Shown here piece by piece: positions 11,658-50,944 of a stretch of 53,466 nt of DNA (position 1 is the first letter of the stretch; each line of letters opens with the position of its first letter). The DNA lies in NCBI GenBank assembly GCA_023228245.1, contig JALOBN010000001.1:104447-157912 (forward strand). Direction: 5' to 3'. The stretch is from Candidatus Pacearchaeota archaeon. Its GTDB lineage: Archaea; Nanoarchaeota; Nanoarchaeia; Pacearchaeales; GW2011-AR1. The notes beneath the pieces were generated by a model, which had not been told where the DNA came from, made no database searches, and saw nothing but the letters and a program-made list of their open reading frames with translations. Made by a program: the position numbers and the translations under genes.

Positions 11658-11689
11658 CAATTTACCAACGCACTCAGAAAGATTCTCAC

Positions 11690-21678: not shown

Positions 21679-21944
21679 TCACTTCGGTCAAAGAGCTACA
21701 CACCACAATTGAACGCGCCGACTACCAATTCTACAATTACTTGATTTGCAAGGTACGAACTGGTGGATCAATTCGGTACGATCTCTATCGAGTTTGGTTG
21801 AGCAATCGCAGCGACAGAACTCTGCTCAAACGCCTTGGATGTGCGCTGCCCCTGGGTCACTGCCGAAGATTGATTCGTGAGCAAGAACCTAATGGAACTG
21901 TGGTTGTTTCTCACCGAGCCTCGCCACAAAGGATTTCAAGATGA
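21675..21944 (+). CDS. Hypothetical basic protein
   Basis: An 89-aa basic protein with several Tyr and Arg residues and a beta-strand rich centre (YLICKVRTGGSIRYDLYRVWL). Coupled by ATGA to the coiled-coil gene and to the macro domain gene. Not recognised. Confidence 0.65.
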   Translation: MITSVKELHTTIERADYQFYNYLICKVRTGGSIRYDLYRVWLSNRSDRTLLKRLGCALPLGHCRRLIREQEPNGTVVVSHRASPQRISR

Positions 21945-22471
21945 CACGCTATCTTACTATCGAACAAGATATCACCACAATGAAGGTTGACTGCATCGTC
22001 AATGCGGCCAACAACCGAATGCTAGGTGGCGGCGGAGTTGATGGATCAATTCATCGTGCTGCCGGTACAAACCTGGTAGAGGCCTGCTCAATCATCCCCG
22101 AAGTATCCAAGGGAGTTCGGTGCCCTACTGGCCATGTGCGAATCACTCCAGCGTTCAAGCTGCCATGCAAGTTCGTGATCCATACCGCAGGCCCCATATG
22201 GAAAGATGGAACGCACAACGAAGCTGAGTTTCTTGCTTCGTGTTATCGGCGGTCATTGCAGTTGGCGGCGCTGCATGGAAAGTCGGTAGCGATACCGGCA
22301 ATCAGTACGGGTATCTTCCAGTTCCCGATTGAGCAAGCTTGTCACATTGCGGTGCGTGAAGTGGAAGCGTTCATGCAATGCGACTCGGACCTTGAGGATA
22401 TCTACTTGGTGACATTCATGTCCGATGAAGTCTCGGAGTGCTTTGCGGAGATGGGAGTACAACATGGCTGA
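21941..22471 (+). CDS. Macro domain protein (ADP-ribose binding/hydrolase)
   Basis: A 176-aa complete MacroD-type macro domain. Motifs: VDCIVNAANNRMLGGGGVDGSIH (residues 16-38, ADP-ribose loop with the catalytic-type Asn and GGGGVDG), KLPCKFVIHTAGPIW, and AIPAISTGIFQFPIEQA as the phosphate loop. MacroD enzymes remove ADP-ribose from proteins or O-acetyl-ADP-ribose. A PARP-type gene lies 1.8 kb downstream, so it may reverse or read the PARP mark, or counter host ADP-ribosylating defences. Confidence 0.9.
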   Translation: MTRYLTIEQDITTMKVDCIVNAANNRMLGGGGVDGSIHRAAGTNLVEACSIIPEVSKGVRCPTGHVRITPAFKLPCKFVIHTAGPIWKDGTHNEAEFLASCYRRSLQLAALHGKSVAIPAISTGIFQFPIEQACHIAVREVEAFMQCDSDLEDIYLVTFMSDEVSECFAEMGVQHG

Positions 22472-22763
22472 CGACAAAGATAAGGGCTTCATTGTAATGG
22501 GTCCTGAGTTGCCAAATGGCGGGCGCGCTGCCATTCATGTTGACAAGGAAGGGGTTCACCACGGCGAGATGTTCCGCGAAGGCGAGGCTCCCGAATGTGC
22601 AGAGGGAGAACTCACCAGGATCAGGACCGAACAAATTGCCGGGCCAATCTATCAAGTCACCGAAGAAGAGCCGATTGGAAAGCCTTTGATGGTAAACTCT
22701 TTGGATTATCGAAATAATTGGAATAACATCTTTGGTAAGAAACAAGACGTTGGAGAAGCATAA
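22464..22763 (+). CDS. Hypothetical acidic protein
   Basis: A 99-aa acidic, probably partly disordered protein. ATG 22464 overlaps the macro gene by eight bases. It begins MADDKDKGFIVMGPELPNGG and ends FGKKQDVGEA; the stop overlaps the next ATG. No motif known. Confidence 0.65.
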   Translation: MADDKDKGFIVMGPELPNGGRAAIHVDKEGVHHGEMFREGEAPECAEGELTRIRTEQIAGPIYQVTEEEPIGKPLMVNSLDYRNNWNNIFGKKQDVGEA

Positions 22764-23257
22764 TGTTAGAAATACAACTTCGAAAAATCGAGAACGGTCG
22801 CGAATACCACCTGACTGGTGCTCACATCGAGTCGCTCCCGCAAATGTTTGGTATACAGCTCGCCAACACAAAATACGCTTTGGTACACGCAGAGCCTGAG
22901 CTGGCGGTGCTCTACGAGTTTCGCGGGCTGATGTTGCGCGGACACGGAGAGGCCTGGGGTACGTCGCTCACACTTTATGGACCAGTTGATCCGCGAATCA
23001 ACTCGCAGATCGATCCCGGCGGTAGCCGGCCAAACATGCCGGCGACGATCGTGTGGCACGACGAGATCTGGGATCGCGATGCGATAAACCGCCTCGGCAC
23101 GAAAGGCGCGATATGTAGTGTGCCAAATGATGAACGAATCGAGGAAGCGCGTAAACAGCTATTTGCGCGGGCCGAACAATATTCGAGGACTGGTGGTTGG
23201 CCGCACTGGTTCGACAGGACCGAGCTTGAGTTAGCGAATAACGATAACGATGAATAG
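22763..23257 (+). CDS. Hypothetical protein
   Basis: A 164-aa protein starting in a TAATG overlap. It has a beta-rich N-terminal half, a DEIWDRDAINRLG segment and a helical C-terminus. Base composition is more GC-rich than its neighbours. Not recognised. It ends the chain begun at 20578; a gene-poor gap follows. Confidence 0.65.
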   Translation: MLEIQLRKIENGREYHLTGAHIESLPQMFGIQLANTKYALVHAEPELAVLYEFRGLMLRGHGEAWGTSLTLYGPVDPRINSQIDPGGSRPNMPATIVWHDEIWDRDAINRLGTKGAICSVPNDERIEEARKQLFARAEQYSRTGGWPHWFDRTELELANNDNDE

Positions 23258-23653
23258 TTCCCAGGAAGAAAAACAATGCCGAAGTTCGACGGCTGCTGCG
23301 TGAAGCTAATAGTTCTAGAGCATTGTCTTCACGGAATTGGGCAGAGCAAAATTTGAGATTGTCGCTGAGGCACTTGATCATCTGGTCTTGAAGAAACGCA
23401 AGAAGAACATTTGGAGCGCGCAGAACCTACTTGGGTAGTGAACTTTGTTATTGTATGGAGAGGCTTCTTGTGATAAGGTATTCTGGATTAGCGAAATGGT
23501 CTTTGGCTCAGTGACCGACAACGGACCTGGGTTGTTGTGATCCTCGGATGTCTGGCGCATCTCGGGCTCATTCATTATGTCCTGAGGGGAATGGTTCATA
23601 TGAAGCATATCACTTACATGCCGTGTAGTTGGGTCTCAATGGAGAAGTAATTA
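23258..23653 (+). pseudogene. Gene-poor gap with coding remnants
   Basis: No intact gene is seen in these 396 bp. A good ribosome-binding site AGGAAGAA precedes ATG 23276, but the frame stops after 26 codons (23356). A different frame then gives a protein-like stretch (GRAKFEIVAEALDHLVLKKRKKN) up to a TAG at 23439. This looks like one small gene broken by a frameshift. The rest to 23653 holds only tiny frames (for example 16 codons from ATG 23600). Confidence 0.35.
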
Positions 23654-23914
23654 GTGACGCAGCGCAAACCCAACGACAGCTCGAAGCATCCAAGGATCGT
23701 AGGCCCCGATGATGAAGGACGGCTCTGCGTCAAGTATTCACGGAAGTTTTGGACGCTGATGGGTGCTTGGTGCAATTTCGAACTCAGTGCAGATCTCATC
23801 AGTCTGCGTCACTACCGACACCTTTACACCGAAGGTAATCCCTGGAATCCAGTACATACCAAGGACTTCTGGGCTTGGTACCAAGAGAAGAACAATGGCA
23901 AAAGTAAAAGCTGA
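23654..23914 (+). CDS. Hypothetical protein
   Basis: An 86-aa Trp-rich, basic protein starting at GTG 23654 with GGAG nine bases upstream. It overlaps the following gene by 20 bases. No motif recognised. Confidence 0.6.
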   Translation: MTQRKPNDSSKHPRIVGPDDEGRLCVKYSRKFWTLMGAWCNFELSADLISLRHYRHLYTEGNPWNPVHTKDFWAWYQEKNNGKSKS

Positions 23915-24254
23915 ATCAACCGTATCTACCTCCATGCCAAACGAAGAAGCTGTCATCCCGGTCGTTGGAATGGGCGTCACTGGCTTGGGCTACACCGATC
24001 GCTACCCATATACGGTGATCGAAGTCATCGACGACAAAACCCTTCGCATCCAAGAGGACAAGGCCACTCGCACCGACACCAACGGCATGAGCGAGAGCCA
24101 ATCATACGACTACGAAGCCGACCCAAAGGGTAAGATCTTGACCATCGTCCTTCGGAAGAACGGCCAATGGCATGTGAAAATCCCGAAAGTCGTCCCCGAA
24201 GCTACTCGCTTCCAGGTGGGCGTCCGTCGCAAGTATCACGACTACAGCTTCTGA
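23895..24254 (+). CDS. Hypothetical beta-rich protein
   Basis: A 119-aa protein. ATG 23895 with AGAG upstream is preferred to the longer frame that runs through the upstream gene. It contains VVGMGVTGLGYTDRYPYTVIEVIDDKTLRIQEDKA, typical of small beta-barrel phage proteins that bind nucleic acid, and a C-terminal GVRRKYHDYSF. 54 bases separate it from the PARP gene. Confidence 0.65.
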   Translation: MAKVKAESTVSTSMPNEEAVIPVVGMGVTGLGYTDRYPYTVIEVIDDKTLRIQEDKATRTDTNGMSESQSYDYEADPKGKILTIVLRKNGQWHVKIPKVVPEATRFQVGVRRKYHDYSF

Positions 24255-24308
24255 AAAACTATCATTCCAAACTCTATCAGAATATAGCTGTGTTCAGAAA
24301 GAAAACAA

Positions 24309-25829
24309 ATGGTAAAAGTTAAAACTAATAAGCAGGCATCTTTTACTGATTATGAGGTTCCTGTTGGGTGGGTTGTCGAGCTTAATTTCTTTGACATGAC
24401 TGGCGAAAAAGCTAAGACGTGCGGAACTTCAGCGAAGATGTATCACCTTGAGATCCAAGCATCGAAAGACGGCACACAATACCAGCTCTATTCGGAGTAT
24501 GGCCCAACTGGAAAAGTTGCGGCTTGTGATTGGCGTTACTTTGGGGAAGATAAAAGTTCTGCAGAGGCCGAGTTCAATTCAATTAAGAAATCAAAGATTC
24601 GCAAAGGCTATGTTGAAATCGATGTAGCTCAGCGCACCCTTGGTAGTGATGAGGCTAAGAAGCAAGTCAAGGCTGTTACACTAAAGAATGCCGAAGCACT
24701 TCCAACTGCGCCGAAGTCTACCATGACCACGGCACAGCAATCCATCGTATTCCTGTTCTTCAATGCACAGGATACTTGGGTTGCCCAGAACCTCAAATGT
24801 CCACTAGGTCAGTTGACAAACAACCAGATTGATCTCGGCCGTGCTGCTTTGAATGAAGCCAAGGTAATCATCAATAAAAATTCAACCTTGTCGGATGAAG
24901 CTCTCAAAGAACTCACCAGGCTTACAAACAGCTTCTATGGGCTCATCCCTCACAACCTAGGGTCTGGTGCTCGTGGTCAGATGTTGGAGCTTCGCCTCGA
25001 TACCCTAGACAAGATCGTAGCCAAGGAAACTGACTTGGATACGCTACTCGATGCCAAGCAGGTCAACGCAGTCCTCAAGGCAGACTCCACGCTGGATGAC
25101 AAGTACCGTTCGCTCAACTGCGATTTCGGCGAGGTGGAGCAGGGCACCGACCTCTGGAAGTTCCTGGTCAGCTACTTCGCGGAATCCAAGGTCAATGGCC
25201 ACGGCTACCACTCCAGCAGGGTCACCCGCATCTGGTCAATGAAGCGCAAGGACAGCAAGGAAGCTGCCTTCATGCGCAATATGGAAGGTATTGCGAAGCA
25301 GGCGGGTAGTCATACGTTCGCCGCTGACACTGCTGATATCAGTGGAGGCAAGAGCAAGCTGTGGACACCTGACCAGCGCCCCGATCTTAACAAAGAAGAA
25401 AGGGATTTGTACAAGCGGGCAAATGTTTGGCTTTGCTGGCACGGCACTCGTTCAGCAAACTTGGTAGGTATCACTCGCCGTGGTTTGCTAATTCGTCCTG
25501 CTGGTGCGGCGTATACTGGAAGTCTCTTTGGTGACGGAAAATATTTCGCGTGGCAATCGACGAAATCGCTAAATTACAGTGACGGTGGATATTGGACTGG
25601 TGGTGGTAAGGTAGATAAACGTTATATGTTCTTGCTAGATTGTGCATTCGGTAAGATGCACCATACGTGGAGTAACCAGTTTTTTAGCGGCCCACCCAAG
25701 GGACATCATAGCGTTTATGGTCGTTCGGGTCGTGGTAGTTCATTGCGTAACGATGAGATGATCACGTACGACAGGGACGACAAGGATAACCAAAGTGGCA
25801 TTCGCTACCTATTTGAGATTACTGGGTAA
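24309..25829 (+). CDS. PARP-type ADP-ribosyltransferase with WGR-like domain
   Basis: A 506-aa protein with the layout of DNA-dependent PARPs: a WGR-like module (about residues 40-105, with YSEYGPTGKV in place of the WGR core and a KKSKIRKGY end), a helical regulatory domain (about 140-250), and the catalytic domain. The triad is intact by eye: H378 in WHGTR, Y412 in FGDGKYFA, E483 in NDEMITYD, and the SKS-like QSTKSLNYS follows. It would use NAD+ to ADP-ribosylate proteins or nucleic acid; the Glu favours polymer formation. Macro and PARG genes on the same replicon support a full cycle. A reverse-strand homing endonuclease ends two bases after its stop. Confidence 0.9.
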   Translation: MVKVKTNKQASFTDYEVPVGWVVELNFFDMTGEKAKTCGTSAKMYHLEIQASKDGTQYQLYSEYGPTGKVAACDWRYFGEDKSSAEAEFNSIKKSKIRKGYVEIDVAQRTLGSDEAKKQVKAVTLKNAEALPTAPKSTMTTAQQSIVFLFFNAQDTWVAQNLKCPLGQLTNNQIDLGRAALNEAKVIINKNSTLSDEALKELTRLTNSFYGLIPHNLGSGARGQMLELRLDTLDKIVAKETDLDTLLDAKQVNAVLKADSTLDDKYRSLNCDFGEVEQGTDLWKFLVSYFAESKVNGHGYHSSRVTRIWSMKRKDSKEAAFMRNMEGIAKQAGSHTFAADTADISGGKSKLWTPDQRPDLNKEERDLYKRANVWLCWHGTRSANLVGITRRGLLIRPAGAAYTGSLFGDGKYFAWQSTKSLNYSDGGYWTGGGKVDKRYMFLLDCAFGKMHHTWSNQFFSGPPKGHHSVYGRSGRGSSLRNDEMITYDRDDKDNQSGIRYLFEITG

Positions 25830-25831
25830 TG

Positions 25832-26623
25832 TCACTTCCACTTATAGCTCAGACTTTTGACCAGAGGCTTCCCGATGAGGTCGTAGAAGTCATTGGCCTG
25901 AGCTTGTGGAAGTTTGATTCGGTATCCTGTTCCATCTTTAATCTTCTCCAGTCCAAAACGCAATCCCCATTTGGCATTCATCTTTTCGCAGATCATTTCT
26001 TGATTGCTGGGAGAGAAACATTGAGACGACAGCGTAATGACTATCTGTCTAGTTTTACGCTTTCGTTCGTACGAAGATCCATCGTCTAAGAACCAGTGAT
26101 GCAGCATGGTTGGTGTTGGAGTCAACGTATCTGGGATTACTTTGATGCCATCCTTGTACCACTCGGAATATGTAGAGCTTAGTTTACTTGTGGCGAATGT
26201 AGAGAACTTAAAATAAGAGAAGCTTTTTCCATTCAGATACGATGTATCAGTTTTAATTCTACTCTTCCAATCTCCGGAGAACAACTTGCTAGCAACCAAT
26301 GATACATGGTCGTAATACTTGTTCTTCTTGTAGAAGTATGGAACAGTTAGAATCGAATCATTCGATCTTCTAAGCCCAGCATCACCAAGCAAAGAACCAA
26401 AGACAATATCGGTGTCAAAGACAAATGAATCATCATTTCCAAGGACTTGTGCTTCACTTCTGTTCCGTATAGGAATCCCGAAGTGTATCAATGCTTGTCT
26501 TACCGAGTTGCCTGTGGCGGCTCCAATTTCTTCAGAGATTTGCTTTGCCGATTTTCCAAGTGTAATATATTGGTTTGTCAGCCAATCAAGGTCGTTGAGT
26601 TGAGTGTACTTTCTAGATGTCAT
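25832..26623 (-). CDS. Free-standing LAGLIDADG homing endonuclease
   Basis: A 263-aa protein on the reverse strand. Residues 12-58 form a helix-turn-helix (DWLTNQYITLGKSAKQISEE…). Two LAGLIDADG helices follow: VFGSLLGDAGL (74-84, Asp81) and LHHWFLDDGSS (174-183), both with acidic residues, so it may be active. It lies tail to tail with the PARP gene, two bases from its stop, and is the only reverse gene between positions 1 and 43894. A mobile insertion next to the PARP gene is likely. Confidence 0.85.
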   Translation of the reverse strand: MTSRKYTQLNDLDWLTNQYITLGKSAKQISEEIGAATGNSVRQALIHFGIPIRNRSEAQVLGNDDSFVFDTDIVFGSLLGDAGLRRSNDSILTVPYFYKKNKYYDHVSLVASKLFSGDWKSRIKTDTSYLNGKSFSYFKFSTFATSKLSSTYSEWYKDGIKVIPDTLTPTPTMLHHWFLDDGSSYERKRKTRQIVITLSSQCFSPSNQEMICEKMNAKWGLRFGLEKIKDGTGYRIKLPQAQANDFYDLIGKPLVKSLSYKWK

Positions 26624-26662
26624 ACATCAATGGAACTATATTGATAGATGGGATGTACTAAT

Positions 26663-26911
26663 ATGAAACTACGACAGCACCGTGGTGGTCTTGCCGAATC
26701 GATGGCCACCACGATTGAGATCGAGCCAACAATGGAGGCGCTTCTTGTAGCAATCAGGGAGCGCTACAAGGGATTGATGGATGTGGCTGACGATGCTGTG
26801 AGTGTGAATCCTCACGGTCATCATGATAAGCGAAATAATTGGAACACTCATATCGTTGTTATCCAGGGCTTTGGGGTCTATGGTTTTACGGATGGGCCAT
26901 TATCATGCTAA
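26663..26911 (+). CDS. Conserved small phage protein
   Basis: An 82-aa protein. The start MKLRQHRGGLAESMATTIEIEPTMEALL and the end WNTHIVVIQGFGVYGFTDGPL belong to a small protein family I remember from many phages, without known function. ATG 26663 fits the family start; an ATG at 26648 is in frame too. It overlaps the next gene by seven bases. Confidence 0.7.
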   Translation: MKLRQHRGGLAESMATTIEIEPTMEALLVAIRERYKGLMDVADDAVSVNPHGHHDKRNNWNTHIVVIQGFGVYGFTDGPLSC

Positions 26912-27174
26912 GCGAATACCAACAAAAAGATCTAGAAATCATCCTTCTGGTCAGTGAATGGCCATCTATAATCTTTGCCATGGTCAAGAGGAGTTGTGAG
27001 GCTGGGGAGATGCCTCAATGCGCCTTCTTGGTAAAGGGGCATGGGCCAAAGCTATACCACAAGAACATGTTCGCACTTGAAAGTGGTTTGCTATCTCCGC
27101 AGTTGGATGGAATTCCCACCACGGAATTCGAGAGTTTCGAGGCTATGTTGGAAGCGGGTTGGGAAGCTGATTAA
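26905..27174 (+). CDS. Hypothetical protein
   Basis: An 89-aa protein. ATG 26905 overlaps the gene before; the longer frame is discarded. Helical N-terminus, a CAFLVKGHGPKLYHKNMF centre and an acidic end. Not recognised. Confidence 0.65.
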   Translation: MLSEYQQKDLEIILLVSEWPSIIFAMVKRSCEAGEMPQCAFLVKGHGPKLYHKNMFALESGLLSPQLDGIPTTEFESFEAMLEAGWEAD

Positions 27175-27194
27175 TTCTGGTTGAAAGGATATCT

Positions 27195-27491
27195 ATGAAA
27201 CAAGCAGTAGTTCTAGTAATCTTCGAAGGTGTTCCAGACGAGAATAAGGTTGCCCTTATCCCCTCTGCCGAACTGAGTCCAGAGCTTCGGGGAGCGTTCG
27301 ATCTCCTGGATGGCAAGATGGTCAATGGCGACTTTGATCTAAGTGCAGAAGTCAACCGAAAGGCTTGCGGCCTTATGTGTGAAGAGATCTACAACGGGCC
27401 TATAGCCAAGTACTTCGTCGAGCGCGGTACCACCTTGCCAGAGCGTGACATCCAGGTCGAACGCATCTACCGCCTTGGGCAGTATCTTTAA
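27195..27491 (+). CDS. Hypothetical protein
   Basis: A 98-aa protein with GAAAGG before the ATG. It has an alpha/beta start (AVVLVIFEGVPDENKVALIP) and a helical rest, acidic. The family is unknown to me. Confidence 0.65.
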   Translation: MKQAVVLVIFEGVPDENKVALIPSAELSPELRGAFDLLDGKMVNGDFDLSAEVNRKACGLMCEEIYNGPIAKYFVERGTTLPERDIQVERIYRLGQYL

Positions 27492-27505
27492 GGCCTGGTA
27501 TTGTA

Positions 27506-27721
27506 GTGGCTTATCACTACATCGAACCTGGCTATAGCTTAATTGAAATTGGCTATATCTATGCATCAAATCTTGGGTCATATGCCACGAAGGCAAAACT
27601 CAAGAGAGTCAACCATGCGACAGGGACCTGCGTCCTAACTTACGAGTTCGGTGGAGGCACCCTCTACCTTTCAATAGCTCGGCTATCAAACTGGCATCGA
27701 ATAGGAAAGCCACCGGAGTAA
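27506..27721 (+). CDS. Hypothetical small protein
   Basis: A 71-aa, beta-rich, Tyr-rich protein (YHYIEPGYSLIEIGYIYAS…) starting at GTG 27506. The ribosome-binding site is weak, so the start is not certain. It fits between two same-strand genes. Confidence 0.5.
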   Translation: MAYHYIEPGYSLIEIGYIYASNLGSYATKAKLKRVNHATGTCVLTYEFGGGTLYLSIARLSNWHRIGKPPE

Positions 27722-27726
27722 AAGTT

Positions 27727-28461
27727 ATGGAACTAACACCATCTCACATTGATGCAATCATCATGCACGTGCGGTTTGCAGAAGGGGATTTGATGGGATG
27801 TTTTCTAGTCTCTTCTCCGCCAGTTGCCAATCTTGGTGGCGCTATTGGTCGTTTGGAAGCTGCTCTATTGATTGCTAGGGAGTGTTATGCGGAGGCAAAA
27901 GCATTGAGTACGGAGCAGATTTCGCACCGTCCTAGCCGCCTGCTAAACCCCTGTCGCGCCTCGAAGGAGCATGTAGCGGGGTGGTTGCAAGGTTCTAGTC
28001 GAGATAAAGAGACGCCTGCAATAATGAAGAGCCTTGATACCATTGTCAAAGAATATGGTATCAAATATGTTTTTGTTGAGAGCGGTAGGTCGTCTGTTGA
28101 GCAGAAGTGTATTGAGTTAGCAATCAATCCTAACGACTATCCTGATGCGAAGTTTTGGTGTGAATTATCTTGGGGGTCTGGTGATGGCGATAAATATGAC
28201 TTCGCCTACAACTCTATCGGCGATACTCTTGGAGAGGCAATTCAGAATTGTCTTGACGATTTTCAATCGGCTGTGAGATGCCAATATCCAGACCAAGTGA
28301 ATGCGGCAAAGGATGCTGGTATCTATTCAAAACTGATCGGTGAAGAGCCTGAGGAATCGCCTGATAGTGATGAGATAGCTGCCGCAGAAGCTGCCGATGA
28401 CCTAGTGGCGTTATCAAACTCTGTGGCCAAGCTTGGTGCATATTCACCTGACGAAACATGA
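27727..28461 (+). CDS. Hypothetical protein, possibly two domains
   Basis: A 244-aa protein. Residues 1-65 are helical; residues 95-180 form an alpha/beta region (SLDTIVKEYGIKYVFVESGRS…); the C-terminus is acidic with Ser and Asp. The stop overlaps the next ATG. No diagnostic motif. Confidence 0.65.
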   Translation: MELTPSHIDAIIMHVRFAEGDLMGCFLVSSPPVANLGGAIGRLEAALLIARECYAEAKALSTEQISHRPSRLLNPCRASKEHVAGWLQGSSRDKETPAIMKSLDTIVKEYGIKYVFVESGRSSVEQKCIELAINPNDYPDAKFWCELSWGSGDGDKYDFAYNSIGDTLGEAIQNCLDDFQSAVRCQYPDQVNAAKDAGIYSKLIGEEPEESPDSDEIAAAEAADDLVALSNSVAKLGAYSPDET

Positions 28462-28835
28462 ACCGGCATATCAGTTCAGAAACGTTGCAAGACTTCTTCA
28501 ATACACTTGGAGAGTCCGAGGCTGTAGATTCTATGACGCAACAGAAGATTGAGTTCACCATCCAAAAAGGTTCTCGTGTTCGAGCTGAGTGGTTTGAGGT
28601 AGACCTCTTCAAGGCGTCACTAGCTGGCGTGCAGCTCAAGACAACCGGCAGACCCAAAGAGATTACCGGCACGATACGCCACATGAGAACCAATGATCCG
28701 AATTGGGCACCAGAGAACGTGGTGCTGTTCGTTGAGCTAGATGAGGATGATGGAACCGGACAGCACTGCGACAAATGCGGGGTGAAGGAAATCCAAATCA
28801 AACCTAGCTGGATTAGAGAGGTGATAGCATTATGA
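28458..28835 (+). CDS. Hypothetical protein with CxxC pair
   Basis: A 125-aa protein starting in an ATGA overlap. It is beta-rich in the centre (GVQLKTTGRPKEITGTI) and has HCDKCGVKEIQI near the end, a single Cys pair with a His. Acidic patch EDDGTG before it. Function unknown. Confidence 0.65.
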   Translation: MNRHISSETLQDFFNTLGESEAVDSMTQQKIEFTIQKGSRVRAEWFEVDLFKASLAGVQLKTTGRPKEITGTIRHMRTNDPNWAPENVVLFVELDEDDGTGQHCDKCGVKEIQIKPSWIREVIAL

Positions 28836-29212
28836 ACACAATATACAAATTCCTGTATTGGTTTTGTGGAGTTGTACTGGGTAACCCAATCTACATCTGC
28901 AAGCTATACATTTTGGAGCTGAAAGAATATGAACTAAAACTTGAGAAGTGTCGCTCTCAACTGACGGCTGCACATACCACACTCAAACCATATTCAGATT
29001 ACCTCTCTTTGAAATGCGGATCTGTGAGGGTGGTTGTGTTTCATATGGAAGAAGTACTAACGCGCATAAGCATTCATGCTAGAGGTATTCGTTGTGATAT
29101 ATCAGAAACGGAAACAGCGATAGCTATGTTGATCAAGGCAGGTCACAGCCTCAACCACGAGACTGCCATGAAAGAGGTATATCGTTTGCGGAAAAGCAAA
29201 GGACTTATATGA
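28832..29212 (+). CDS. Putative membrane-anchored helical protein
   Basis: A 126-aa protein. Residues 4-24 (IYKFLYWFCGVVLGNPIYICK) are hydrophobic and could be a membrane anchor. The remainder is helical and coiled-coil-like (LELKEYELKLEKCRSQL), probably cytoplasmic. ATGA overlaps on both sides. Confidence 0.6.
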   Translation: MNTIYKFLYWFCGVVLGNPIYICKLYILELKEYELKLEKCRSQLTAAHTTLKPYSDYLSLKCGSVRVVVFHMEEVLTRISIHARGIRCDISETETAIAMLIKAGHSLNHETAMKEVYRLRKSKGLI

Positions 29213-29499
29213 GCACGAATGATGATGCTATGGACAAGGCAATAGTTGCCGCTGCTGAAGCTGCTGTTGATGACTGGGAGCGTGGGCTCAAGGCACGAGA
29301 AAATGGTGACGTTCTAGCGGTGCGCAATATCCAGCGAGTACAGCAAGCGGTTAATTCGAAGCGAGATGCGCTTAGCCTAACCGAATTGGTAAGACTGCTT
29401 AACCGAACTATCGATACGGCAGCAAGTCTCGACGCTATAACGGATGAAGAGATTGTGATCCTTCGAGCTTTCGTTGGGACTATCCACAGCAGGGGGTGA
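29209..29499 (+). CDS. Hypothetical helical protein
   Basis: A 96-aa all-helical acidic protein (…AAAEAAVDDWERGLKARENG…). Coupled by ATGA to the putative membrane protein. No family recognised. Confidence 0.65.
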   Translation: MSTNDDAMDKAIVAAAEAAVDDWERGLKARENGDVLAVRNIQRVQQAVNSKRDALSLTELVRLLNRTIDTAASLDAITDEEIVILRAFVGTIHSRG

Positions 29500-29502
29500 G
29501 GT

Positions 29503-29826
29503 ATGTTTTCATGTCCAGCGAAAGCTCCCATAACACTACGCAGCGAGACTAGCAAAGAGCACACGATGATACCTGGCTCGGAGAAGTATTCGTTCTGCGA
29601 GTCAACGACAGCGATACGCAACCATTGGCATATTCGCCAACTGGACGAGTCAGGTAAGCACTCTGGTGGCGGCATCACTACCCCTTCACTCTGCGGCATG
29701 GTCAAGCCACTACCTGAGGGGATGGGCGGATGGGATGTGACAGTGGACATCACGCCGCACCATGTAGAGCACAACTGTCAGAAGTGCTGGGAGCAGTTGC
29801 AGGTAGAGCTTTCGAAAGGTTCTTAA
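29503..29826 (+). CDS. Small cysteine-rich protein
   Basis: A 107-aa protein with LCGM and HNCQKC as a possible zinc site. ATG 29503 lies directly after GGTGAGG (short spacing); ATG 29566 (MIPGSEKYSFCE) is an alternative start. The pattern of a Cys in mid-chain and a terminal CxxC recurs in the next gene. Confidence 0.6.
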   Translation: MFSCPAKAPITLRSETSKEHTMIPGSEKYSFCESTTAIRNHWHIRQLDESGKHSGGGITTPSLCGMVKPLPEGMGGWDVTVDITPHHVEHNCQKCWEQLQVELSKGS

Positions 29827-29827
29827 C

Positions 29828-30127
29828 ATGCATATTGATCTTGACAAGTATACCTGGAAGATATTGCCCGGAAGAAAGGTGTGCCATGCCGTTCATAGGT
29901 ATAATTTCGAAACTGCCTTGCATGGCATTTGTGGCCAAACCAACAGCTATAAACATACTGTTCTACTAGATCCGTTCAAGGATACTAGGAAATGTGAGCA
30001 TTGTTTGATAGCGATTGTCTATCGCGAAATTGGGTACAACAAAATATATTGGAGAGAGTTCTTGGAAGAAAACCCTGAGTATGGACCTCCATCTTGGAGA
30101 GATCACTCCGTTGGTATAGCTGTATGA
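29828..30127 (+). CDS. Small cysteine/histidine protein
   Basis: A 99-aa protein with CHAVHR, HGICG and CEHC, likely a zinc-binding fold related in layout to its upstream neighbour. It is coupled by ATGA to the radical SAM gene. Confidence 0.65.
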   Translation: MHIDLDKYTWKILPGRKVCHAVHRYNFETALHGICGQTNSYKHTVLLDPFKDTRKCEHCLIAIVYREIGYNKIYWREFLEENPEYGPPSWRDHSVGIAV

Positions 30128-31071
30128 AACTTGAAGATATCGGATTTTTAGAGGTCGTTGAGGAGCGGGCAAAAAGGATTGAGCCTGGGAAGATTTCGTA
30201 TTGCGAATGGATCATCACATCCAATTGCAACTTCAACTGTCCCTATTGCAATCGCCTTGAGCCAAGAAACACAAAGGACTTAACCCTAGATCAAATCCGA
30301 TCCTATACAGAAATTCTAGCTGGTATGGGTTGCAAGTATATTCACCTTACAGGTGGTGATCCTACTACTCGCCCAGACCTTCTAGACATTGTGCGGTTGA
30401 TTAGGAGCTTCGGCATCAGGGTCGGAATATCAACCAATGGATCTCGAAGGCTAACTTACTATGAGGAATTGGTCGAGGCAGGTATTGAACTGTTCTCCCT
30501 CTCACTAGATGTTCACCAGCGAGATCTGAATAACAAGTTCACAATGGTACCTTCGCGTGTCTTTGATGTGGTAGTCTCAAACATTCGAGAACTATCAAAA
30601 ATGGTATACACGAATGTTGGCGTCGTATTCAACGATGACAATGCGGATAAGTACCGAGAGATCATTGAATTCATATCCGGTTTGGGGGCTCATGATATCC
30701 GAATCATGACAGCTACAAAGTACAACAAGATTCTAGCTTTTGAGCTGGATAGCGACTTGCTGGACAAGCATCCCATTTTGAAGTTTAGGGTTGAGAACTT
30801 CAATGCCGGCAGGAACATGAGGGGTTCTGGACTAGCCCAAACGCCAAGGTGTCATTTGGTTAGGGATGACATCACGATCTTTGGAGAGGACTTTTATTCT
30901 TGCGCCGTATACGTTCGCGAGGGAGGTTCTCCAATAGGCAAGTTTGGTACTGGTAACATTGAACTTCGAGAAGCGTGGTTTGATAGTCACAACTCTCATC
31001 GTGATGAGTTGTGCAGTACATATTGCATGGACTTCAAATGTCAATTCAATGACAGAGTAGAGGCGGTCTAA
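30124..31071 (+). CDS. Radical SAM enzyme with auxiliary cysteine cluster
   Basis: A 315-aa protein. CNFNCPYC at residues 35-42 gives the C-x3-C-x2-C site for the 4Fe-4S cluster that cleaves S-adenosylmethionine; LTGGDPTTRPDL is the GGE-like SAM-binding turn. The C-terminus has RCHL, SCAV and CSTYCMDFKC, consistent with a SPASM or twitch-type auxiliary cluster, as in peptide-modifying enzymes. ATG 30124 overlaps the upstream stop. Stop and next ATG overlap (TAATG); then an ATP-grasp gene follows. The substrate is unknown; the small protein between them is a candidate. Confidence 0.85.
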   Translation: MKLEDIGFLEVVEERAKRIEPGKISYCEWIITSNCNFNCPYCNRLEPRNTKDLTLDQIRSYTEILAGMGCKYIHLTGGDPTTRPDLLDIVRLIRSFGIRVGISTNGSRRLTYYEELVEAGIELFSLSLDVHQRDLNNKFTMVPSRVFDVVVSNIRELSKMVYTNVGVVFNDDNADKYREIIEFISGLGAHDIRIMTATKYNKILAFELDSDLLDKHPILKFRVENFNAGRNMRGSGLAQTPRCHLVRDDITIFGEDFYSCAVYVREGGSPIGKFGTGNIELREAWFDSHNSHRDELCSTYCMDFKCQFNDRVEAV

Positions 31072-31340
31072 TGGCAACTCGCAAGAAGGTTCCAACTTCA
31101 ACCAATCCAAATCCCCCTCCGCCCAAAGTAGGGACAGTGATCAAAGGACGCAGCGACATAGCACCATGTGAAGTGCGCGCTGTTGTAGATCATGTTAAGG
31201 ACGATATGTACGGCCACTTGTATCAATTGGTTGTTAGGTCGCAAAGTATAAAGCATCCTGGTTCGTACAGCTATTCGTTGGTTGATGCTCATGCTATTGG
31301 CCTTGGTCTTTATGTTGTTGTGAAAGGTAGCGTCAAATGA
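31071..31340 (+). CDS. Small protein between radical SAM and ATP-grasp genes
   Basis: An 89-aa protein fused into the operon by overlaps on both sides (TAATG and ATGA). The N-terminus is basic and proline-rich (RKKVPTSTNPNPPPPK), followed by a small beta-rich body with one Cys. It could be a peptide substrate or a recognition partner, or just an unrelated small protein. Confidence 0.65.
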   Translation: MATRKKVPTSTNPNPPPPKVGTVIKGRSDIAPCEVRAVVDHVKDDMYGHLYQLVVRSQSIKHPGSYSYSLVDAHAIGLGLYVVVKGSVK

Positions 31341-32467
31341 TTCTTTTCCCAAGTCATCCGTCATTCCCCAGGCAACCCGATCCTTCTTTCGAAGAAGAAA
31401 TTGAGGCTGCTAAAGCCGCGGGTTTCAAGATTGGATTGGTGGATGTTGATCAAAAGATCTTTGCCGGTAGCCAGATCCCATGCCTGTATCGCGGCTGGAT
31501 TATGACACCAGATGGGTATATCGATTTGTGGCATAAGGAACCTAAGTTGATTATAAATCCAGGCGAGTACGAGAACAGTTACAACTTTCCTGCCTGGTAT
31601 AATCAAGTAAGGGCTTTTGATAACTCTCTTACGCCTCGGTCTGTTAGTCACCAACTTTCACCAAACATACCAATCAGCGATATTTTCGATCAGCTTGAAG
31701 AGGACTCTTGGTATGAGGCATTGACCGGTCCAGTAATAGTTAAGGATTGGGTAAAGAGTCGGAAACACGAATGGTTTGACGCTTGCTACATTAGCGACAT
31801 TCGCGATAAAGCTGAGTTCAAGCGCGTCGTAACCAACTTCCTCAATGGGCAGGGTGATGACCTTGCCGGCGGCTTAGTGTTCCGAGAGTTCGTTAAGCTC
31901 AAGTCAATTGGAGTTCATCCCCAGAGCAAGATGCCTCTCACCAACGAGCATCGCTTCTTCGTGTTCAAGGGACGGATATTCTACTCGGCCCCTTACTGGG
32001 ATAGGAGTTTCTACGGCACCTCAAACTTGCCAGACAAGAAGGTCATCATCGATCTGGTTCCGCACATCAAGAGCAACTTCTTTGCGATTGATGTTGCCGA
32101 GAAAGAGGATGGTGGATGGATTGTGGTTGAGGTGAATGATGGAGGGACGGCTAGCGTTCCTGATGGCGGAAACATTGCTGAGTTCTATCTCAAATTGAGA
32201 GTTGTTTTAGCCATGACTAAAAAAGAAGAACGTGAGTTGACCGCCATCATACAGGATGCATGGAAACTACTAGAGCGTCCAGGGTGCGACTCGCAACAAA
32301 TCCCTGATTACTTACACATCAAAAGCGGGAATGAGTACGAGATAACATCTGTGGCTCTTAGAGAATCTGACTTGATGCCTCTAGTGATCTATAGAAGGAA
32401 AGGTCATACCGTTCAATTCGCCCGATCTATATACGAGTTTCTGGAGAAGTTCAGATCCATGGGGTAA
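31337..32467 (+). CDS. ATP-grasp ligase, R2K-type
   Basis: A 376-aa protein. The segments VKDWVKSRKHEW (135-146) and GGLVFREFV (178-186) are the hallmark of the R2K clade of ATP-grasp proteins (formerly DUF4343); metal-binding residues follow in FAIDVAE and VVEVNDG (about 249-268). ATP-grasp enzymes join a carboxylate to an amine through an acyl phosphate. The first 110 residues form an N-terminal recognition domain. The last 70 residues, after a linker, look like a separate small domain. Together with the radical SAM enzyme it suggests modification of a peptide or protein. Confidence 0.8.
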   Translation: MILFPSHPSFPRQPDPSFEEEIEAAKAAGFKIGLVDVDQKIFAGSQIPCLYRGWIMTPDGYIDLWHKEPKLIINPGEYENSYNFPAWYNQVRAFDNSLTPRSVSHQLSPNIPISDIFDQLEEDSWYEALTGPVIVKDWVKSRKHEWFDACYISDIRDKAEFKRVVTNFLNGQGDDLAGGLVFREFVKLKSIGVHPQSKMPLTNEHRFFVFKGRIFYSAPYWDRSFYGTSNLPDKKVIIDLVPHIKSNFFAIDVAEKEDGGWIVVEVNDGGTASVPDGGNIAEFYLKLRVVLAMTKKEERELTAIIQDAWKLLERPGCDSQQIPDYLHIKSGNEYEITSVALRESDLMPLVIYRRKGHTVQFARSIYEFLEKFRSMG

Positions 32468-32471
32468 GGTT

Positions 32472-32795
32472 ATGACAATTGCGCAAGTAAGGTCCGATAC
32501 ATTAGCAGACTTGCTAGCTGAATTTGACGTACACCTTACCAGAGAACAACTTGATAGTGTCTCCGATTCCTTCGCCGGCCATATCGAAATGGAACGCGAA
32601 CAGGAGGGTTACAAGTTCTGGGGACCGCACGTTTGTGACGATTGCACGAGACTAAAAGAGCGAGTGAAGGATTTAGAAAAACAATTGGCCGACGCTTACG
32701 AAGGCGGAGAGCGTGCGGTAAAGCGAATCCTTGGGCTCTTTCCGGACGACCCCATTGCAATAGACAAACATGGTAACGTTGAGAGGATGCGATGA
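32472..32795 (+). CDS. Hypothetical coiled-coil protein with CxxC
   Basis: A 107-aa protein. A CDDC pair at about residue 55 is followed by a coiled-coil helix (LKERVKDLEKQLADAYEGGERAVKR…). The stop overlaps the ATG of a 35-codon membrane peptide gene. Function unknown. Confidence 0.65.
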   Translation: MTIAQVRSDTLADLLAEFDVHLTREQLDSVSDSFAGHIEMEREQEGYKFWGPHVCDDCTRLKERVKDLEKQLADAYEGGERAVKRILGLFPDDPIAIDKHGNVERMR

Positions 32796-32899
32796 TACTT
32801 CTAATTCTAATTGGTTTATTGATCGTGATTGTTCGCCCATGGGAATCAGAACCAGAATACGATTTTTCTCGCGGCTCAGTATTTCCAGAATATATGTAA
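32792..32899 (+). CDS. 35-aa single-span membrane peptide
   Basis: ATG 32792 overlaps the upstream TGA (ATGA) and the frame ends at 32899, four bases before the AAA+ start. Residues 2-18 (ILLILIGLLIVIVRPWE) form one perfect membrane helix; the short C-terminal tail is acidic. Placement between coupled genes supports it being real. It might anchor the BCS1-like ATPase that follows. Confidence 0.6.
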   Translation: MILLILIGLLIVIVRPWESEPEYDFSRGSVFPEYM

Positions 32900-32903
32900 T
32901 AGA

Positions 32904-34133
32904 ATGTCATTTGCAAAACCAAAGAAGCTCCGGTGGAGAAGGCTTCTCTCCTTCGCTACTGATATTATCAACAAAACCCCGCACCGTAGCGATGGGATGT
33001 TGACGAAGGTTATCAAGACGCTTGCAGTAATTGATTCATTCAATACCCAAATGACCAAGGGTGGAAAGTCATCCGCCATATCAAGCTTCTTTGGTGACCT
33101 TGACTTGGTAGAAGTAACCAACGATCAGTTCGTCAACCTCTTCTATTCTACAGGCCTAAGAGATAGCTTCACCATTACTAGGATTGAGGTTGGTGACTAC
33201 TGCGAGATCGTCAAGGCAACCCGTGCGGATATCGGAACCCTATACTTCGTTGAGTGGCATTGGGGACGGCGGCCTGAACCATCTGCAGACTTCTACCACA
33301 CGCCGGGATTCAATTTCGAGAAGGCCCTTGCTGTGCTGTGGGAGAACTTCCATGGCCGCATTCATCTAGGGATAACTCAAGGTCGGGAGGGAGAACTCAA
33401 ATCCACCTATTCCGAAATCCCCGAACCAAAAGAATATCTCTTTGGTAAAACAAGAGAGATGCTTCAAGAGTTCAAGGAACAACATCTACTCTACGTCAGA
33501 GACCACGTACCACGCACCTACCTCTTCTGCGGCAAGCAAGGCATTGGTAAGACATCCTTCTGCCTTCGCTTAGCAGCGCTCACTGGAGGAAGGACTCTGC
33601 GCATTGATGCTTGTGGCATGACGGAGGTGGGGGTTAGGGACCTAGACTTCATCGTCAATGGGTTGTGTCCGAACTTCCTGATTGTAGATGACATAGACCG
33701 TGCCCCAGACCTTACCAAGTCTTTACCAACGCTGTTCTCAATTCTCTCTGACTTCAAGCGCAAGCACCCAAATGTTACGGTGGCGATGACCATCAATGAC
33801 ATCAATCAACTTGATGTGGCTTTGATAAGGCCAGAGCGGATTGATGAGATCATCGAGCTGGAACCTCCCGATGGAGAAGATCGGACGGACATTCTAAAGG
33901 GGTACTTGGAGGCTTTCGGAGTTACCGGCGAGGTTGATATCGCCAAGCTCTCTGAAGCCACTGAGGGGCTGACTGCCGCCTACCTTCAGGAGATTGCCTT
34001 GCAGCTTCGATACCGCCCTCAGGAGAAGGTTCTGAAGCTTGTGACTAGGATGAATGAGCTGACCAAGGCAAAGGCTGTAGAGAAGGAATCTAAACCAGGT
34101 GACATTTGGCACAGGGCCTCAACCAAGGCATGA
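32904..34133 (+). CDS. BCS1-like AAA+ ATPase
   Basis: A 409-aa AAA+ protein. Walker A GKQGIGKTS at 210-218, Walker B FLIVDDID at 258-265, sensor-1-like AMTIND, and an arginine segment ALIRPERIDEIIEL (from 306) as in BCS1/FtsH-type ATPases. The KTREMLQEF…HVPRTYLFCG lead-in resembles BCS1. The N-terminal 180 residues lack homology that I can see and lack a membrane helix; the preceding 35-aa gene encodes one. ATG 32904 is chosen over the longer frame from 32829, which crosses that gene. Confidence 0.8.
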   Translation: MSFAKPKKLRWRRLLSFATDIINKTPHRSDGMLTKVIKTLAVIDSFNTQMTKGGKSSAISSFFGDLDLVEVTNDQFVNLFYSTGLRDSFTITRIEVGDYCEIVKATRADIGTLYFVEWHWGRRPEPSADFYHTPGFNFEKALAVLWENFHGRIHLGITQGREGELKSTYSEIPEPKEYLFGKTREMLQEFKEQHLLYVRDHVPRTYLFCGKQGIGKTSFCLRLAALTGGRTLRIDACGMTEVGVRDLDFIVNGLCPNFLIVDDIDRAPDLTKSLPTLFSILSDFKRKHPNVTVAMTINDINQLDVALIRPERIDEIIELEPPDGEDRTDILKGYLEAFGVTGEVDIAKLSEATEGLTAAYLQEIALQLRYRPQEKVLKLVTRMNELTKAKAVEKESKPGDIWHRASTKA

Positions 34134-34136
34134 GTT

Positions 34137-34634
34137 ATGTTCAAGTCAATCGACCTATCTTCTTTAGAATCTACCTGGGCGTACGCACCTGGGGAAGAAG
34201 TTTCTCCTGGGGTTTGGGTAACGTGGACACATAATTTTGAGAACTTTTATCTTACCAAAGAGTTTGAAAGTTTTTGTGAGTGTACTTTAGCAGCCACGGA
34301 TGGGGTAGACCCTTTGAAATGGTTTGTGGATTCTGGTTTTCGCAGCACGTATGGTGTCTGTGATAGTCCTGAGCAATTCCTGGCCAGTGATGTTTACAAG
34401 TTCTACAACGAGCGGCCAGAAGAGTTCATTGCAACTTTGACGGAGGTTCGTAAGGATGACCAACCAAAGCAGGGTGGCTGGCGATGGCACAAGTGGGGAC
34501 CGTACATTGGGACTCACGAGAAGCAGTTCGAGTACCTGGCTGATGAAGAGGGAATCGAGCGCGTGTTCTGCTACCACATCGTGTTGAGGGTGAGTCTCAA
34601 AGAACGCCTAGGAGCAATTACCCCCGAGGATTAG
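34137..34634 (+). CDS. Hypothetical protein
   Basis: A 165-aa protein three bases after the AAA+ gene. Rich in Trp, Phe and Tyr in the first half; the centre has GGWRWHKWGPYIG followed by an acidic helix and a C-terminal strand. This compact pattern occurs in phage proteins of unknown role. Not identified. Confidence 0.65.
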   Translation: MFKSIDLSSLESTWAYAPGEEVSPGVWVTWTHNFENFYLTKEFESFCECTLAATDGVDPLKWFVDSGFRSTYGVCDSPEQFLASDVYKFYNERPEEFIATLTEVRKDDQPKQGGWRWHKWGPYIGTHEKQFEYLADEEGIERVFCYHIVLRVSLKERLGAITPED

Positions 34635-34638
34635 TTTT

Positions 34639-34881
34639 ATGACTGTAGAATTATCAGGTCAAGAATCTAAGGCGCTTTGCAAGTGGGCTGGCGTAGACCT
34701 TTCTCAAAGCTGCAATGATGATGGATCTCCAAATCCATTATTGGTTGCTGGTGCTATACGCAATGTCATTAGGGCTTCGGAGCAGTTGGGTCCGAAGCTC
34801 GTTGCGATGCTTGCGGTGCGTGGTTTGATTGAGCCCGGCGAGACTCCAGTAGATGCTTTGGAAAGGTTGCTAGATTCATGA
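34639..34881 (+). CDS. Hypothetical small helical protein
   Basis: An 80-aa helical protein (ESKALCKWAGVDLSQ…, LVAMLAVRGLIEPGETPVDALERLL). Ends in an ATGA overlap. No family recognised. Confidence 0.65.
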   Translation: MTVELSGQESKALCKWAGVDLSQSCNDDGSPNPLLVAGAIRNVIRASEQLGPKLVAMLAVRGLIEPGETPVDALERLLDS

Positions 34882-35192
34882 AGACTATATTCATCCTTGA
34901 AGATGATGATGAGGTGGCAACCTCCGATCTTTGCCGCCCATTGAATCCATCTGGTGCGCTGGAACTGTCCGCATTTGGTAGGTATGTTCGGAACAACTCA
35001 ACATGGATTCCGGTGACAGAAGTACTTGGTCCGATGTGGATGGGGAAGAAGTTGGGCGCGATAAAGAGGGAGCTAACTGAGAAGTCTGTCCATGAGTATG
35101 TGTTCGAATACGAAGTGATTCGAGGGGAAGTTCCGAGAGATCATTTGCTGGATGTAGATGCTTATAAGACTCAGATGCTACATGGGTTCTAA
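34878..35192 (+). CDS. Hypothetical protein
   Basis: A 104-aa protein starting with a strand and acidic turn (IFILEDDDEVA). The middle is mixed. Coupled to its neighbours by overlap and two-base spacing. The first ten residues recall receiver folds, but the rest does not fit. Confidence 0.65.
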   Translation: MKTIFILEDDDEVATSDLCRPLNPSGALELSAFGRYVRNNSTWIPVTEVLGPMWMGKKLGAIKRELTEKSVHEYVFEYEVIRGEVPRDHLLDVDAYKTQMLHGF

Positions 35193-35194
35193 CT

Positions 35195-35581
35195 ATGACT
35201 TACGCTGAATGGATTGCGGCCTACATCGAATCTCAGAATGGTATTGTATATGGGCAATGCTCTTCTGCAGTTGCTGCGATGGTCAAGGTGTTTCCCGAGC
35301 TTCGCATTGTTCGGGGTCATGTGTTCGATTTGCAGTTGGGGCAACGAAGTCATTGGTGGTTGGTGACTGCAGCTGGTGAGATTGTAGATCCTACCAAAGG
35401 CCAATTCCCTTGCCTCATGGAGTATGAAGAGTGGGTGCCTGGTACTGAGGTGCGGGTTGGGGCTTGTATGCAGTGCGGGGCTGATATCTGGGAAGCTGTT
35501 GATTCGCTTGATGGGCCACCTATTCATCGCAACTTTTGCAGTTCAGAATGTGAAGCTGAGTTGATTAGTGAATACAGATGA
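35195..35581 (+). CDS. Cysteine-peptidase-like phage protein with zinc site
   Basis: A 128-aa protein. GQCSSAVAAM (Cys21), HWWLVT (His) and EIVDPT (Asp) have the Cys-His-Asp order and spacing of papain/transglutaminase-like folds, in a phage family that I recall having this layout. The C-terminal 45 residues add CMQCG and CSSEC, a zinc finger. Substrate unknown. It overlaps the PARG-like frame. Confidence 0.6.
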   Translation: MTYAEWIAAYIESQNGIVYGQCSSAVAAMVKVFPELRIVRGHVFDLQLGQRSHWWLVTAAGEIVDPTKGQFPCLMEYEEWVPGTEVRVGACMQCGADIWEAVDSLDGPPIHRNFCSSECEAELISEYR

Positions 35582-35601
35582 TGCGTTACAGGAAAGACAA
35601 A

Positions 35602-36492
35602 ATGAACAAGCTACAAAAAATTGCCGAAGACACAATCGCTGCTATCGATGCCGAGAAGTACACCACTCCTTCAGGCCGCACGCTATCGCTCGACAAGCTG
35701 ATGGCATCCTGCACTCGAAGGTCAGTTCTCTACAAGCCAGATGGCATTGCGGAACTGGAGAAGTCCAATGGTCTCACTCGGAAGATCGTGGTGGCTCCAG
35801 AGATCATGGTGACGAGGGAGTCAACGCTGGAGGCTGCGGCGCGGTTGGCTGGTGAGCGTCCCTGCATCCTCAACTTCGCTTCGGCAAAACACCCTGGTGG
35901 CGGCTTCCTGCGTGGGTCTCCGGCGCAAGAGGAGAGTATTGCGCGCAGCTCTGGGTTGTTCCCAACGCTGATTCGGCACCCTGAGTTCTACGAAGAGAAC
36001 AAGAAGTCACAGAGAAATAACATTGGGTTGTATTTGGACTATGCCATTTACTCTCCGGATGTTCCAGTCATCCGCAATGATGCTGGTGAATGGTTAGAGG
36101 AACCATACTTTGTGTCTGTTGTTACATCGCCAGCTCCTAATCGTCATGCAATCTTCGATGATGAAGACAACAAGATGGATGACGATCAAGAGGAAGCAAT
36201 GGAGATGAAGATTGAACAGACTTTTTCAAAGAGAATGAAACAAGTACTCTCAATCATGGCAGCTCAAGGACATCGAACGATCATCCTGGGAGCGTGGGGA
36301 TGCGGGGTATTTGGCAATGATCCATTGATGGTTGCTGAATTGTTCAGAGACAACTTGAAGCTTCTGCCGTTTTTTGATAAAGTGGCGTTCCCAATATACG
36401 ACCGGTCGGACTCAGAAACGCTCCGGTCATTCGTTCAAATCTTCGGGCCGGAGGTTGACCCACGGACCGGTTCGAAACCACAACCGAATTGA
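35602..36492 (+). CDS. Poly(ADP-ribose) glycohydrolase, bacterial type (TIGR02452/DUF2263-like)
   Basis: A 296-aa protein. NFASAKHPGGGFLRGSPAQEES (about residues 91-112) holds the PARG catalytic signature GGG-x7-QEE, with the two Glu that cleave ribose-ribose bonds. A GAWGCGVFGNDP phosphate loop lies downstream. ATG 35602 has AGGAAAG upstream; ATG 35578 overlaps the previous stop (ATGA) and is the alternative start. It would degrade poly(ADP-ribose), matching the PARP encoded 10 kb upstream. Removal of host-made ADP-ribose marks (for example DarT-type) is an alternative role. Confidence 0.85.
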   Translation: MNKLQKIAEDTIAAIDAEKYTTPSGRTLSLDKLMASCTRRSVLYKPDGIAELEKSNGLTRKIVVAPEIMVTRESTLEAAARLAGERPCILNFASAKHPGGGFLRGSPAQEESIARSSGLFPTLIRHPEFYEENKKSQRNNIGLYLDYAIYSPDVPVIRNDAGEWLEEPYFVSVVTSPAPNRHAIFDDEDNKMDDDQEEAMEMKIEQTFSKRMKQVLSIMAAQGHRTIILGAWGCGVFGNDPLMVAELFRDNLKLLPFFDKVAFPIYDRSDSETLRSFVQIFGPEVDPRTGSKPQPN

Positions 36493-50943: not shown

Positions 50944-50944
50944 G

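Follow-up and report, generated by a model that had tools for sequence, protein, structure and literature searches.

Genes for a PARP, a PARG and a MacroD-type hydrolase in a probable jumbo phage segment: a possible ADP-ribosylation cycle near DNA-end genes

A 53,466-nucleotide stretch of contig JALOBN010000001.1 (assembly GCA_023228245.1, filed under Candidatus Pacearchaeota archaeon; the whole stretch is called the window below) was found to carry genes for three enzymes of ADP-ribose metabolism: a transferase resembling PARP1, PARP2 and PARP3, a poly(ADP-ribose) glycohydrolase (PARG) of the bacterial type, and a MacroD-type macro domain protein. Around 28 open reading frames (ORFs) of its plus strand have counterparts, largely collinear, within 40 kb of G004, a 391,957-base IMG/VR viral record with a terminase match. 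Judged from this collinearity, the window most likely derives from a jumbo phage, as an earlier note on the same DNA had assumed. We propose, with a probability of roughly 0.38, that this phage has a reversible ADP-ribosylation cycle of its own, complete in itself and probably linked to the phage DNA. The earlier note had already spoken of a complete phage ADP-ribose cycle; the parts were identified correctly, and the pair of PARP and PARG is found again in other jumbo phages, but the word cycle is stronger than the evidence.

All three genes matched curated family models (Pfam, TIGR02452) above cut-off (Table 1), and profile searches and PARP alignments bore out the catalytic residues and signatures that had been read from the sequence. 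The window transferase has the order of domains (WGR, PARP_reg, PARP catalytic domain) of the clade-1, or DNA-repair, PARPs. With respect to a DarTG toxin-antitoxin pair (a DarT-type toxin beside a DarG macro antitoxin), what was seen in Pfam is that the transferase matched these three families and no other. Structures of PARP1 and PARP2 on DNA breaks were matched nearly end to end (4dqy over residues 8–506). H378, Y412 and E483 are identical in 26/26 rows of an alignment of close relatives, and the triad is aligned in 19/19 phage PARPs, the window being included in both; a weak match in phage G, without the triad, was left out of the latter alignment. Such conservation suggests selection for an active enzyme, and the loss of catalytic residues that had been named as grounds for rejecting the idea was not seen in sequence alignments. 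A scan of genome contigs for a bacterial source of the gene with alignment A2 gave 26 pattern matches, of which none was confirmed; the scan is weak because the patterns are specific to the close clade.

Both erasers likewise have intact signatures. The PARG match covers nearly the whole model and includes the GGG-X6-8-QEE signature; the protein aligned with solved PARG 3sig at E=1.8e-56, and the glutamate that reads A in chain 3sij is retained. Its ORF starts upstream of the ATG at 35602, which is a later in-frame codon. The best solved match of the macro protein was 5cb3, named an O-acetyl-ADP-ribose deacetylase (E=1.5e-40). Aligned with solved MacroD-type chains, it has the NAAN...GGGGVDGxIHRAAG loop, including the N and D that both read A in chain 5cb5. 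Thus PARP, PARG and MacroD, the components of a complete poly(ADP-ribose) metabolism, are all intact in the window; the same is not true of G004.

Table 1. Coordinates of features in the window, with supporting matches.
Feature	Position	Strand	Evidence or remarks
MacroD-type macro domain protein, 176 amino acids	21941..22471	+	predicted mono-ADP-ribosyl hydrolase; PF01661 E=8.4e-42
PARP1/2/3-like ADP-ribosyltransferase (ART), 506 amino acids	24309..25829	+	WGR, helical regulatory and ART domains
WGR domain, residues 39-105	24423..24623	+	PF05406 E=3.8e-6; motif alignment
PARP_reg helical domain, residues 163-263	24795..25097	+	PF02877 E=1.6e-12
ART catalytic domain with H378, Y412, E483	25377..25829	+	PF00644 E=4.1e-18
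Bacterial-type PARG, 304 amino acids	35578..36492	+	PF10021 E=2.9e-42; TIGR02452 E=1.2e-70
PARG signature GGG-x7-QEE	35896-35934	+	reads GGG-FLRGSPA-QEE
Ku-type DNA-end-binding protein	11633..12631	+	PF02735 E=6.4e-32; bacterial Ku structure 8v53 E=1.9e-21; phrog_4873 E=4.5e-27
Calcineurin-like phosphoesterase	15998..16861	+	PF00149 E=4.9e-12
Small ATP-dependent DNA ligase	17921..18685	+	phrog_114 E=3.1e-41; PF14743, PF01068; KLDG at residue 24
Free-standing LAGLIDADG endonuclease	25832..26623	-	directly behind PARP; PF03161 E=1.3e-20

The three genes do lie on one strand within 15 kb, as the earlier note had stressed. This common strand has little meaning, because 62 of the 76 window ORFs of at least 90 amino acids (longest picked first, little overlap) are on the plus strand. 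Neither do the genes form one operon: other ORFs intervene, and an opposite-strand LAGLIDADG gene stands between PARP and PARG.

Viral records, some of which may be fragments, were collected in searches led by PARP, PARG and macro, after which whole records were searched with profiles. A PARP was present in 21 records: the window, G001–G009, G012, G013, G016, G018, G037, G042, G046, the phage record LR756511, Klebsiella phage 05F01, RAS14 and XacN1. PARP and an intact PARG occur in one record in the window, LR756511 and a second jumbo-phage lineage made up of G012, G013, G016, G018 and G037. All three kinds of gene with an intact PARG were seen only in the window, G018 (where the macro match lies 3 kb behind PARP and is 16% identical to the window macro) and LR756511. 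Searches led by PARG gave 22 viral records, five of which hold a PARP (G004, G012, G013, G016, G018). Among metagenome proteins (the best 120 of longer lists), PARP P0130, PARG P0018 and MacroD P0256 have an equal longest-contig size of 71,137; sizes of 28,588 and 233,817 are common to PARP and PARG, and 31,481 to PARP and macro, the assignment to one contig being based on equal sizes only.

The association was also evaluated in relatives chosen by terminase. The query was built from eight PARP-bearing records, the best 80 of at least 396 relatives were kept, and those of 100 kb or more, 21 in number, were searched; PARP was found in eight, PARG in five (that of G004 broken) and macro in four. 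PARG was present in 5/8 records with PARP and 0/13 without (Fisher p=0.0028, kinship ignored). For the 11 records of at least 200 kb, the corresponding value was p=0.06, and for macro it was p=0.25. The terminases of G012, G013, G016 and G018 are 71–87% alike, and a single branch of PARGs takes in G012, G013, G018 and G037, four of the five records that have the gene.

In the PARG tree, the window PARG and those of the second lineage form separate branches with bacterial PARGs between them (support 97/93 and 99/100), and the two as one clade were rejected (p-AU 0.026). Apparently, PARG was thus gained twice in PARP-bearing lineages. Rows of this tree were hand-chosen, and the test was made without LR756511, G010 and G014 on a clade named after the tree was seen. 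The LR756511 PARG is on a very long branch.

Genes that the earlier note had missed make the DNA reading worth testing. Upstream of the window macro gene lie genes for Ku, a phosphoesterase, an FtsK-like ATPase and a ligase; Ku starts 12.7 kb and the ATP-dependent ligase 6.4 kb before the start of PARP. Bacterial-type end joining uses such a Ku and ligase as a pair, and genes for both are also present in G004. There the ligase profile match crosses two stop codons, so the small ligases could be truncated versions. In LR756511, an ATP-dependent ligase lies 0.4 kb behind PARP, and in G012, G013, G016 and G042 a LigA-like NAD-dependent ligase, whose gene runs off the retrieved sequence in G012 and G016, lies 2.6–4.1 kb upstream of it. 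A LigA-like ligase follows within 0.8 kb of the PARG in G010, a record with no PARP match. Other DNA genes near PARP are a UvdE UV endonuclease 1.1 kb behind it in G037 and a DnaQ-like exonuclease 2.9 kb upstream of it in G001; the gene sizes of the latter block recur in G002, G003 and G005–G009, though only the G001 genes were scanned. PARP near a ligase in three lineages corresponds to a rough binomial p of 0.001–0.0035 for 8–12 lineages, in a post hoc test with the number of lineages set by our judgement. With the two ligase queries used, no such ligase was found within about 5 kb of PARP in G018, G037, G046, XacN1, RAS14 and 05F01. As far as gene content can tell, Ku and a ligase upstream of the window PARP, and other ligases near PARP in two further lineages, are pointing to DNA-end metabolism.

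On the reading that we prefer, the PARP, if active, would attach ADP-ribose, probably as chains rather than single units, to a target that arises or becomes accessible in the course of infection. PARG would then cut the chains and the MacroD enzyme would take off the final unit, the one bound to protein, allowing the phage itself to reset the mark; the two erasers would in this way be partners of the PARP. The likeliest targets would be proteins, perhaps the PARP itself, at phage DNA ends, nicks or replication intermediates, where Ku and DNA ligase could be supplied by the same genome region.

Several comparative observations count against this proposal. A PARG was found in 8/21 PARP records (the window, G004, where it is broken, G012, G013, G016, G018, G037 and LR756511), a count biased upward because G012, G013, G016 and G018 came from PARG-led searches; the profile search found none in the remaining 13. 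Nor is the three-part set of the earlier note conserved as a unit among relatives. In G004, the PARG is a remnant (residues 1–127 and with them the GGG-QEE signature are gone, and the frame is changed), and PARP and macro have been kept although PARG is broken. Macro was above cut-off in 10/21 PARP records (the window, G001–G004, G018, LR756511, 05F01, RAS14 and XacN1); it had seemed a conserved partner when the first eight PARP records all had it. The MacroD type of the window was seen in its close kin only. The macros of G001–G003, G004b and G031 (the last two the same in sequence) are 17–20% identical to it and of another type, presumably TARG1/DarG-like; the Pseudomonas phage Y1 row of this alignment, a wrong-strand ORF, was ignored. 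In the phages collection, tblastn gave 15 records matching PARP and 20 matching PARG, with LR756511 alone on both lists (LR756511, 05F01, RAS14 and XacN1 being the four of the 15 that were searched whole). If the five query records (G002, G004, G012, G013, G018) are removed from the terminase sample, PARG remains in 1/3 records with PARP and 0/13 without (p=0.19). Each PARG branch also includes one record in which no PARP was matched (G010, G014), and in bacteria, according to a 2014 survey, PARG shows no strong tendency to accompany PARP (PMC4245714). The genes therefore do occur independently, one half of what had been said to speak against a cycle; the other half, that they are never together, does not apply.

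The link to DNA ends meets objections of its own. Neither type of ligase was found with the two queries within 10 kb of PARP in G001–G003 and G005–G009, of which G007 and others are fragments. Ku was tried and rejected as a constant partner of PARP (4/20 other PARP records against 0/17 without PARP, p=0.11, not significant). The WGR motif of the window PARP is Y-G-P-T-G in place of W/Y-G-R-x-G, and its arginine is replaced by P, A or S in 26/26 close-relative rows (Y/W/F-G-P/A/S-T). In the data seen in PMC4081085, substitution of this residue (PARP1 R591A, PARP2 R140A, PARP3 R103A) abolished DNA-dependent activity, which counts against plain break sensing by the window protein. The arginine is retained in the PARPs of G008b, G012, G013, G016, G018, LR756511, 05F01, RAS14 and XacN1. 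By its sequence, the window protein is a PARP of clade-1 architecture; it is not classed here as a DNA-break-activated PARP.

The strongest alternative to a cycle is that the erasers merely sit in the same genome as the PARP and act as independent counter-measures: PARG and MacroD would undo ADP-ribosylation imposed by the host or a competitor (DarT-type on DNA, RhsP2-type on RNA 2'-OH, or small ADP-ribose signals). We regard this as a realistic possibility, if a tentative one. Bacterial PARGs are described, in the portion of PMC11833690 available to us, as removing RhsP2-type RNA marks and protecting cells, and 17/21 PARG records had no PF00644 match above cut-off (phage G, G010, G014, G029 and thirteen records below 200 kb, possibly fragments). 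Macro is not enriched with PARP either: 10/21 is no more than the 56% of jumbo phages given in a passage of PMC9503650. Independent erasers fit less well with the occurrence of PARG only with PARP in the terminase-chosen family, a small and non-independent sample, and with the two apparent gains of PARG in PARP-bearing lineages. Another explanation, which we hold to be improbable, is host takeover, with the PARP modifying host proteins such as RNA polymerase in the manner of T4 Alt and Mod and the erasers limiting the effect. Passages of PMC7824862 and PMC9503650 (section 3.7.1) propose this role for phage ARTs and PARPs, the latter suggesting host macromolecules as targets of phage ARTs. Yet WGR and PARP_reg belong to DNA-linked PARPs, and none of 20 selected PARP-neighbour ORFs scanned matched a head or packaging family (injection and packaging signals were not sought). 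Several of the 20 are DNA genes (ligases, the DnaQ-like exonuclease, UvdE, a D12 methyltransferase); the set also contains genes for radical SAM, IMP dehydrogenase, glyoxylate-shunt and homing-endonuclease proteins. Despite the metabolic and homing-endonuclease genes, the neighbours favour DNA metabolism over host takeover. Where the earlier note had left a list of purposes open (host control, the phage's own DNA, disarming of defences), the Ku and ligase context thus favours the phage's own DNA, by inference. The least probable reading is that of a PARP that adds ADP-ribose one unit at a time or has no activity, with PARG serving something else; against it, H-Y-E is kept in all 26 and all 19 aligned sequences.

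The proposal of a phage-encoded cycle can be extended, to a form that we consider unlikely. Jumbo phages of this family would then possess a full viral poly(ADP-ribose) cycle coupled to DNA end joining: PARP would mark ends or nicks in the phage DNA, Ku and ligase would join them, and PARG and MacroD would reset the mark. Such a eukaryotic-type break response would have been rebuilt more than once with different ligases and PARGs, and in the window lineage it would be switched on by something other than the WGR arginine.

The macro-PARP-PARG slot is common to the window and G004, with macro 78% and PARP 45% identical in the genome comparison. In the PARP alignment, the window PARP is 63–67% identical to those of G001–G003 and 47% to that of G004, which is itself 63% identical to the G007 PARP; it looks as if PARP genes have been exchanged in the slot. 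Relatives of the LAGLIDADG gene also lie directly behind PARP in G001 and G005 (L001:11503-12303 and L037:11550-12536; 51% and 43% identical, orientation differing), and this gene may mobilise PARP alleles. Elsewhere in the window, a SNF2-type helicase (7646-11014) contains an intein-like insert with a LAGLIDADG_3 match; its residues ~177–534 match PHROG terminase profiles, perhaps via shared inteins. G008, G042 and G046 each have two PF00644 matches in separate ORFs; the two G008 PARPs are 26% identical to each other, and the second G046 match is a short 137-amino-acid frame. Beside the second PARP gene of G042, isocitrate lyase and malate synthase genes of the glyoxylate shunt are adjacent (L204:12895-17170). 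The window also has an R2K-type ATP-grasp gene (31337-32467), and near the XacN1 PARP lies a DUF4343 gene (L009:1597-2412), which we take to be of the same family. Acetolactate-synthase-like and KASIII-like genes adjoin at 49255-52015, possibly a small biosynthetic pair in a phage.

Poly(ADP-ribose) metabolism typifies eukaryotic DNA repair and is seldom found in bacteria. Jumbo phages with a writer and erasers near end-joining genes would offer small, testable systems for asking what poly(ADP-ribosyl)ation is useful for in a prokaryotic cell, and could show whether it serves phages to protect or label their DNA. Phages that keep PARP and either lack PARG or have lost it are natural comparisons.

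Phage PARPs, phage PARGs and phage macro domains have each been described in print. The 2014 survey, in the parts seen, names four double-stranded DNA viruses with PARP and three different viruses with bacterial PARG, the two being reported in separate viruses only (PMC4245714), and a passage of PMC7824862 notes that few jumbo phages have PARPs. The pairing of PARP with PARG is absent from the relevant passages of PMC7824862 and PMC9503650; the text seen of the latter does not contain the word PARG and names poly-ADPr glycohydrolases in general among macro activities. No publication on a virus with both PARP and PARG was found in the open-access literature, supplements not covered. Individual phage PARPs on record in the passages seen are those of Aeh1 and Cellulophaga phi4:1 (PMC4245714) and Xanthomonas XacN1 (BBA65562.1, PMC7824862). 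They resemble the window protein as PARPs with H-Y-E, XacN1 having been aligned here; whole-record profile searches found no PARG in XacN1, RAS14 or Klebsiella 05F01. Bacillus phage G, whose bacterial PARG is already reported in the 2014 survey (PMC4245714), has like the window a PARG with intact signature (gp114) and a macro (gp122). It was rejected as a three-part phage, its PF00644 match being 21 bits, below cut-off, with the triad missing in the alignment.

The window PARP has the domain order and fold of human PARP1, PARP2 and PARP3, differing in that it has no other Pfam domain matches and its WGR arginine is replaced. The huge phage LR756511 (595 kb) has PARP, PARG and macro in one genome, as does the window, but its genes are dispersed, its macro is 18% identical and its PARG signature has a longer spacer. 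Complete PARP/PARG/MacroD sets are known from bacteria, on the parts seen of PMC5966428 and PMC4245714. Herpetosiphon aurantiacus and Clostridioides difficile CD160 have the same three enzyme types, with WGR-PARP_reg-PARP and a GGG-X6-8-QEE PARG (PMC5966428). In comparison, the window set, predicted from its genes, is in a phage, lies within 15 kb and lacks the WGR arginine. What is new is the carrier, and a possible link to end joining, for known enzymes that form a known bacterial kind of system.

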